From positions 1 to 62,449 of the forward strand of contig DATFKK010000019.1 of the NCBI GenBank assembly GCA_035268685.1: a stretch of DNA of 62,449 nt. Direction: 5' to 3'. Below, in pieces: positions 23,862 through 49,563 of this stretch. The notes under the pieces were generated by a model, which did not search any database, was not told the origin of the DNA, and saw nothing but the letters and a program-made list of their open reading frames with translations. Positions within the stretch are counted from its first letter, which is position 1. Each line of letters starts with the position of its first letter. Origin of the DNA: Candidatus Krumholzibacteriia bacterium. GTDB taxonomy: Bacteria; Krumholzibacteriota; Krumholzibacteriia; JAJRXK01. The position numbers and the translations under genes are program-made.

Positions 23862-24929
23862 TCACCCGCCCTTGGCCTGTTCGGCCGCCTTGCCGAAGGC
23901 CGCCCAGAAGGGATCGACCTGCGGATGCACGAGATCGTGCTCGACGCCGTTGTCGAAGTAGCGGGTGCCCTCGGACGGATCGGTCACCTCGCCGACGATC
24001 GACGCCGCGATGCCCTTGTCCTTCAGCCGCTGCACGGCCTCGTCGGCCTTGTGCGGGCGGCAGGTGATCAGCAGCGTGCCCTCGCTGATCGAGGTCATGG
24101 GATCGATGTCGAACATCGAGCAGATCTTGTCGACCCGGTCGTCGACGATGATCTCGCTCTTCTGGATGTTCATGCCGACCTCCGACGCAGCGGCGATCTC
24201 GGCCAGACCGCCCCAGACACCGCACTCGGTGGCGTCGTGCATCGAGGTGATGCCGTCGTCGCGCACGCCGACCTCGACGGCGGTCATGGCGTCCTCGACC
24301 ACCGACATCTGCCAGAACACGTCCTCGGCCCGGCGGGCGAAGTCGTCGCCGTGCTCGGCGGCGATCCGATCGGGGAAGGTCACCGCGAACAGGCCGGTGG
24401 CCTCGATCGCCGCGCCCTTGGTGACGATCACCTTGTCGCCGGGACGCGCCATGGTCGGGGTGAGGTAGCGATCCTTCGAGCCGATCGAGATCACCGTGGC
24501 GCCGCCGATCATGGGGTAGTTGGTGCCCTCGTAGCGGCCGGTGTGCCCCGACACGATGGCCATGCCGATCTTGTCGCACTCGCGATGGATCGTGCTCCAC
24601 AGCGCCTCGAGGTCCTCGCGCTGGATCGACATGGGCAGGTTGAGGTCGATGGTCAGGTAGCCCGGCGCGATGCCCGCGGTGACGGCGTCCGACGCGAGGA
24701 TGTGCACGGCGAACCAGGCCGAGCGCTCCCAACCGTAGGGCGGCACCACGAAGACGGGATCGGTGGTGGTGATCATCACCTGATCGTTGCCGATGTCGAC
24801 GACGCCGACGTCGACACCGTTCTGCGGGCCGACGACCACTTCGTCGCGTCGGCGCCCGAGTTGCGGGTAGATGATCTCCTCGAACACGCCCGACGAGATC
24901 TTGCCGATGGTCGGCAGTTCTGCAGCCAT
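23862..24929 (-). CDS. AIR synthase/HypE-like ATP-binding protein, thiamine-operon member
   Basis: A 355-residue member of the PurM/HypE/ThiL/SelD superfamily, closest in layout to HypE-type AIR-synthase-related proteins. Visible features: an N-terminal glycine-rich strand, TDPVFVVPPYGWERSA, an acidic NLPMSIQREDLEA segment, SGHTGRYEG, GDKVIVTKGAAIEATGL, and the C-terminal HDATECGVWGGLAEIA. HypE's terminal Cys is absent (it ends KGG), so it is not a hydrogenase maturation protein. ThiL, which phosphorylates thiamine phosphate, is in the same superfamily; a kinase or ATP-dependent role in thiamine salvage is a reasonable but unproven inference. ATG with AGGAGGT upstream. Confidence 0.78.
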   Translation of the reverse strand: MAAELPTIGKISSGVFEEIIYPQLGRRRDEVVVGPQNGVDVGVVDIGNDQVMITTTDPVFVVPPYGWERSAWFAVHILASDAVTAGIAPGYLTIDLNLPMSIQREDLEALWSTIHRECDKIGMAIVSGHTGRYEGTNYPMIGGATVISIGSKDRYLTPTMARPGDKVIVTKGAAIEATGLFAVTFPDRIAAEHGDDFARRAEDVFWQMSVVEDAMTAVEVGVRDDGITSMHDATECGVWGGLAEIAAASEVGMNIQKSEIIVDDRVDKICSMFDIDPMTSISEGTLLITCRPHKADEAVQRLKDKGIAASIVGEVTDPSEGTRYFDNGVEHDLVHPQVDPFWAAFGKAAEQAKGG

Positions 24930-49093: not shown

Positions 49094-49248
49094 TCGAGCA
49101 GGTGTGGGCTGGGGAGATCCCCCGGCTCCGCGCACGGACCGTCCCCGCGCCGCCCGCCACGCGGCATCGCTAGGCTGTGCACTCCCCGGCCGGCGACCGA
49201 CGATCGCGACCTGGATCGCCGGCAGGCCCCGACGCAAGGAGGTCCCCC

Positions 49249-49563
49249 GTGGACATTCCCCGCATCGAACCGACGGTTGCGCACCAGCACGCCTCGGAAG
49301 GCGATGCCCTGATCGTGTGCGCCTACGACGACGAGAAGAAGTGCGACGACCTCGGCGTCTCCGGCGCGATCTCGCTCCACGAGTTCGAGGATCGTGCCGA
49401 GGACCTCGACCGTCGTCGCGAGATCATCTTCTACTGCAACTGACCCAACGACGAGAGCTCCGCCCGTGCGGCGGACCGATTCGCCGAGCAGGGGTTCGAG
49501 AACGTCGAAGTCGTCGCTGGCGGCTACGACGCGTGGGAGAAGGCAGAGCTGCCCACGACCTGA
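49249..49563 (+). CDS. Selenocysteine rhodanese-like protein (in-frame UGA = Sec65)
   Basis: GTG 49249 follows AAGGAGGT. A 64-residue open stretch stops at TGA 49441-49443 in IIFYCN-TGA-PNDESSARAA, and the same frame continues 39 codons to TGA 49561. Rhodaneses have the active-site loop YCxCPN with catalytic Cys at this very codon, so the full 104-residue product is a rhodanese domain with Sec65 as nucleophile; the tail VVAGGYDAWEKAELP is typical of the fold. A hairpin follows 15 nt after the UGA. It likely moves sulfane sulfur or selenium; Sec would make it a more reactive or redox-active form. Stop-codon pseudogene is the alternative. Confidence 0.85.
49459..49475 (+). promoter_or_regulatory. 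Bacterial SECIS hairpin for Sec65
   Basis: Stem UCCGCC/GGCGGA with loop CGUGC, inside the coding region. The GUG of the loop is 22 nt after the UGA. It shares the CGUG loop with the other SECIS hairpin. Confidence 0.7.

Follow-up and report, generated by a model that had tools for sequence, protein, structure and literature searches.

A predicted rhodanese-fold selenoprotein from a Krumholzibacteriia genome belongs to a widespread C-x-U family with candidate double-selenocysteine members

Rhodaneses are usually sulfurtransferases, and GlpE has the classical rhodanese active-site loop. A CxU rhodanese selenoprotein has already been listed as form 2/form 3 (TKB26178.1) and tied to the NCBIfam model NF041203, rhodanese_LYCAU (PMC9312934, PMC13188914), and a rhodanese-like selenoprotein, form 1 (WP_010941598.1), is listed with the motif UxxS (PMC13188914). 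TsoB (NF045694), a rhodanese/DsbD fusion-like selenoprotein, is listed with two selenocysteine (Sec) residues (UxxxxU). Bacterial proteins listed with two nearby Sec residues are Prx-like, FmdB-like, and mercuric reductase proteins, each with the motif UxxU. Here, we analyzed a 62,449-nucleotide stretch of DNA (the window) from a Candidatus Krumholzibacteriia bacterium and describe a gene that joins the already known CxU rhodanese selenoproteins, in a subfamily that has no curated model.

Positions 49249 to 49563 of the window read VDIPRIEPTVAHQHASEGDALIVCAYDDEKKCDDLGVSGAISLHEFEDRAEDLDRRREIIFYCN-TGA-PNDESSARAADRFAEQGFENVEVVAGGYDAWEKAELPTT-stop, with a single internal TGA, and the GTG start lies 5 bases 3' of a strong Shine-Dalgarno sequence. 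The features of the locus are as follows.

49236..49243, + strand: Shine-Dalgarno sequence AAGGAGGT, upstream of the GTG start (from sequence)
49249..49563, + strand: predicted rhodanese-fold selenoprotein gene, 104 residues, GTG start, TGA stop at 49561-49563 (from Pfam, AlphaFold2, and PDB rhodaneses)
49318..49320, + strand: codon of Cys24, nearly invariant in the family, in the motif LLVCAYDDE
49435..49437, + strand: codon of Cys63, the C of C-x-U, which is TGA (Sec) in U-x-U relatives
49441..49443, + strand: in-frame TGA, predicted selenocysteine 65, conserved in relatives
49459..49475, + strand: putative apical stem-loop of a bacterial SECIS (from the window fold, family covariation, and the published bSECIS model)

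The TGA falls within the rhodanese domain, in the context FYCN-U-PNDESS, and the read-through product matches Pfam Rhodanese (PF00581) at 34.3 bits (cut-off, 22.2). The frame runs on past the UGA through the rest of the domain, as the preliminary description had proposed, and ends at a normal stop. We predict that the gene encodes a real selenoprotein with a rhodanese fold and Sec in its active site and that the protein is small and free-standing, with no visible signal peptide. Ordinary annotation would truncate the gene at the internal stop codon. Reassignment of TGA to tryptophan was considered and is ruled out, as neighboring genes, and the gene itself, end in TGA as a normal stop.

The protein resembles those covered by NF041203 in being a small single rhodanese domain with a C-x-U (FYCNUP, against the YCxUPxEA motif of the model), yet it scores 58.5 bits, below the cut-off of 115. 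All 45 of the family members tested match NF041203 (best E value, 5.2e-20) and none reaches its cut-off, and we therefore place them in an uncurated, signal-less subfamily, which differs from NF041203 proper in starting at the domain and in having the LLVCAYDDE motif. By comparison, two proteins of genome G030 that scored above the NF041203 cut-off in the genome search have an N-terminal leader and form a separate branch. These two lie in tandem (contig C96, 4537-5380; locus L030) as C-x-U rhodanese selenoproteins of the NF041203 type, both with N-terminal leaders and above the family cut-off. Form 1 is likewise a rhodanese domain selenoprotein and is set apart by its listed motif alone, UxxS as opposed to CxU. 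TsoB shares the rhodanese part but differs in its 572-residue model and Sec spacing, and the window protein reaches 22.7 bits against the TsoB cut-off of 805. GlpE and other single-domain cysteine rhodaneses (1gmx, 3ilm, 6mxv) have the fold in common with the window protein (TM score, 0.77 to 0.81) but carry Cys in place of Sec and have no C-x-U pair.

The preliminary description had called for a search for Sec machinery. The complete set is present in the genome from which the window comes (4.59 Mb, 99% complete): a tRNA-Sec that exceeds the Rfam cut-off at 74.2 bits and that ARAGORN confirms (anticodon tca), together with SelB (335.7 bits), SelA (466 bits), and SelD (325 bits), each above its curated cut-off. 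The SelD gene (locus L018; genome G000, contig C87, 29957-30889) has one in-frame TGA of its own, near the N terminus, in the context SAAG-U-AAK, so that the active site reads G-U-A. We take this site to be where Sec-containing SelD proteins have their catalytic Sec, which makes SelD a second, independent Sec gene in the genome. Within the window, a weak SelD match at 24108-24902 on the minus strand (60 bits; cut-off, 125) is probably not SelD itself but a different protein of the AIR synthase/ThiL-like superfamily.

The nearest relative, from a genome of the same class (G066; the same contig is L091), has 53% identity to the window protein; the figure is 56% (35/63) upstream of the TGA and 50% (18/36) downstream. 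Scanning genome contigs with the window protein by itself returned no relative, probably because peptide patterns cannot match the TGA and are too specific, whereas a two-row alignment of the window and G066 proteins recovered 45 loci in named genomes plus further loci. About 47 relatives have TGA at the same codon and conservation beyond it, and members come from Geomonas, Geobacter, Desulfobacterales, Desulfobulbaceae, Candidatus Brocadia, Acidobacteria, Planctomycetota, and Nitrospiraceae records, among others. Because these relatives retain the TGA and are conserved on both sides of it, the TGA is not a matter of chance; an early stop with nothing conserved behind it in relatives was looked for and is refuted.

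Sixty-five loci were fetched, ten of which gave no row, mostly owing to weaker matches or other spacing. Extraction used a pattern that demanded Cys or Sec at positions 63 and 65, and with it the 56 rows read C-x-U in 47 cases, U-x-U in 7, and C-x-C in 2. All confirmed main-branch hits that were read fit this pattern, and in the main branch of 48 rows the second position is TGA in every case except one, a C-x-C paralogue of genome G095. Across 45 aligned proteins, positions 63 and 65 are Cys or Sec throughout, as the selecting pattern demanded; the invariant columns are C63, Sec65, A75, G91, and G92, and C24 is nearly so. A search of plasmids found no relatives. Genomes of the same genus or family as the window's (G001, G002, and G003; loci L035, L032, and L034) gave weak, ordinary rhodanese matches with no TGA; the Sec gene seems to be confined, within this family of genomes, to the window's genome, and it may have been recently gained or lost. 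Its neighbors in the window are an SDR gene, a phosphatidylethanolamine-binding-protein family gene, and Mrp/complex-I-like antiporter subunits, and across relatives no common neighborhood, selenium-related or other, was found beyond close Geomonas species.

Downstream of the TGA, the window RNA can form a hairpin (stem, UCCGCC/GGCGGA; loop, CGUGC; -10.4 kcal/mol) whose loop starts 21 bases after the TGA. The published bSECIS model has a loop of 3 to 9 bases, a G in the first two loop positions, a spacing of 16 to 37 bases from the UGA, and an energy of -7.5 or lower (PMC13188914), and the hairpin agrees with it in loop length, loop G, spacing, and energy. Taken alone, the window hairpin is not significant against shuffles (z = -0.60; synonymous-codon shuffles, P = 0.07), and the SECIS case therefore rests on covariation in the family. 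There, the third-codon bases at +21 and +33, numbered from the T of the TGA, are paired in 49 of 49 nonredundant genes compared with 36.2 expected (TA 28, CG 19, GC 1, TG 1). Their mutual information (0.98 bits) is the highest among 136 third-position pairs, the next being 0.40, and none of 100,000 permutations reached it. Relatedness inflates pair counts, so we also counted independent contrasts on supported branches: pairing there was nearly always concordant and never discordant, over three contrasts, a number kept low by the short proteins and the poor resolution of the tree. At +27, a third-codon base in the loop, 42 of the 49 genes have T and 7 have G, with no A or C, whereas a glycine codon further 3' uses all four third bases. 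This pattern at synonymous positions argues that selection acts on the RNA hairpin downstream of the TGA in its own right.

AlphaFold2, given the 45-row alignment with Sec modeled as Cys, predicts a complete rhodanese fold for the read-through protein (pLDDT, 96.7; pTM, 0.90). The best Foldseek matches are Alr3790, 6mxv, BH2092, GlpE, and rhodanese domains of persulfide-handling enzymes, with TM scores to PDB rhodaneses of up to 0.81. In the model, a strand ends at residue 62, residues 63 to 65 are coil, and a helix runs from 66, so the C-x-U sits at the helix start. The preliminary description had the UGA replacing the catalytic Cys codon of the rhodanese. Its placement in the domain (FYCN-U-PN) stands, whereas the exact correspondence is ambiguous by alignment: in HMM alignments the catalytic Cys of the classical C-X4-5-R/S loop falls opposite Cys63 in some cases and Sec65 in others, and 6mxv places the catalytic Cys of its domain 2 on Sec65 and that of its domain 1 on Cys63. 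Given this ambiguity, we regard the substitution of Sec for the catalytic Cys as likely rather than certain. A Cdc25-like back-door role for Cys24 was considered and dropped, as a gapless hand alignment puts Cys24 off the expected position.

The read-through gene, its RNA element, and the Sec machinery have computational support, as do the predicted fold and the conserved C-x-U/U-x-U pair. The reading that we consider probable is a free-standing rhodanese-fold selenoprotein, made by read-through of one hairpin-directed UGA and using Cys63-x-Sec65 as a redox pair, with the chemistry being the part that we infer. SelB and tRNA-Sec would read through the UGA as directed by the hairpin just downstream, placing the Cys63-x-Sec65 active site at the end of a beta strand, directly before a helix. 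Sec65 would then attack an oxidized or sulfur-loaded substrate, which might be a persulfide, a polysulfide, a peroxide, or a selenium compound; Cys63 would close on Sec65, and the resulting selenenylsulfide may be re-reduced by thioredoxin, glutathione, or a similar thiol system. Cys63 has repeatedly been swapped for the costlier Sec, which speaks for direct participation of residue 63 in the chemistry next to Sec65 and suggests that residues 63 and 65 act as a redox pair, a selenenylsulfide (or diselenide) couple.

The main rival is plain sulfur transfer, in which Sec65, standing in for the catalytic Cys, would carry a persulfide-like Se-S group to an acceptor, with Cys63 auxiliary. The company that the protein keeps is in its favor, since its Pfam and PDB relatives are rhodaneses, including GlpE and the rhodanese domains of persulfide-handling proteins, and the catalytic Cys of 6mxv domain 2 aligns with Sec65. 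The classical C-X4-5-R/S loop looks altered, however, with the model helix starting at 66, straight after Sec65, and a one-residue carrier needs neither a Cys nor a Sec at position 63, which holds one or the other in all rows read and repeatedly Sec. The C-x-U/U-x-U motif thus favors a redox pair, and we consider classical sulfurtransferase activity unlikely. Far less likely is a selenium carrier, whose Sec or Cys pair would bind selenide or perselenide and hand it to SelD or to tRNA selenouridine synthase. According to a reference cited in PMC5877670, rhodanese can bind selenium as perselenide in vitro, and the gene is found in Sec-using bacteria; yet a carrier does not itself require Sec, and a neighboring gene common to relatives is absent beyond close Geomonas species. 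That the TGA marks a decaying gene, a sequencing error, or genome-wide recoding to another amino acid has a negligible probability: all that speaks for it is the presence of the TGA and the weak score of the hairpin in this one sequence, against the same TGA in dozens of genomes, the conservation after it, the Sec machinery, and the synonymous-site covariation. The interpretation in the preliminary description is supported, with the addition of a large family and of C-x-U/U-x-U as the relevant motif.

The first Cys is also TGA in G066, in a Deltaproteobacteria MAG (L101), in a Nitrospiraceae MAG (L128), in G095, in G110, and in two paralogues of G151. Parsimony, on a tree built with the motif residues masked, gives at least six changes to U-x-U, four of them in the main branch; the count is approximate, as the tree has few columns and many weak forks. 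U-x-U recurs in another species of the G151 genus (G387, L136) and in another genus of the G095 family (G390, L146), which argues against sequencing error; sampling is thin, as phylum-wide searches around G110, G151, G103, and G095 covered 1 to 10 genomes each. In U-x-U genes the two UGAs are six bases apart, and the hairpin loop lies about 21 and about 27 bases away, both within 16 to 37. It is likely, in our estimate, that these are true double-Sec rhodaneses that arose about six times independently from C-x-U, that one SECIS hairpin serves both UGAs, and that the two residues could pair as a diselenide within the rhodanese fold. Prx-like, FmdB-like, and mercuric reductase proteins likewise have two close UGAs in bacterial genes but belong to other families and have UxxU spacing. 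A U-x-U rhodanese was absent from the selenoprotein tables searched, and a term search of the open literature gave no rhodanese paper. In G095, two tandem rhodanese-like genes about 450 bases apart (L022/L087; contig C60, 78192-78917) provide a natural Cys/Sec pair within a single genome: one is C-x-C and lacks a TGA, and the other is U-x-U and has two.

The family is widespread in bacteria and poorly catalogued; as it had no curated model at NCBI in June 2026, annotation probably truncates its members or misses them. The U-x-U genes let one ask whether one bacterial SECIS decodes two UGAs six bases apart, and the CxC, CxU, and UxU series in one fold is a ready set of proteins for asking what benefit Sec has over Cys.
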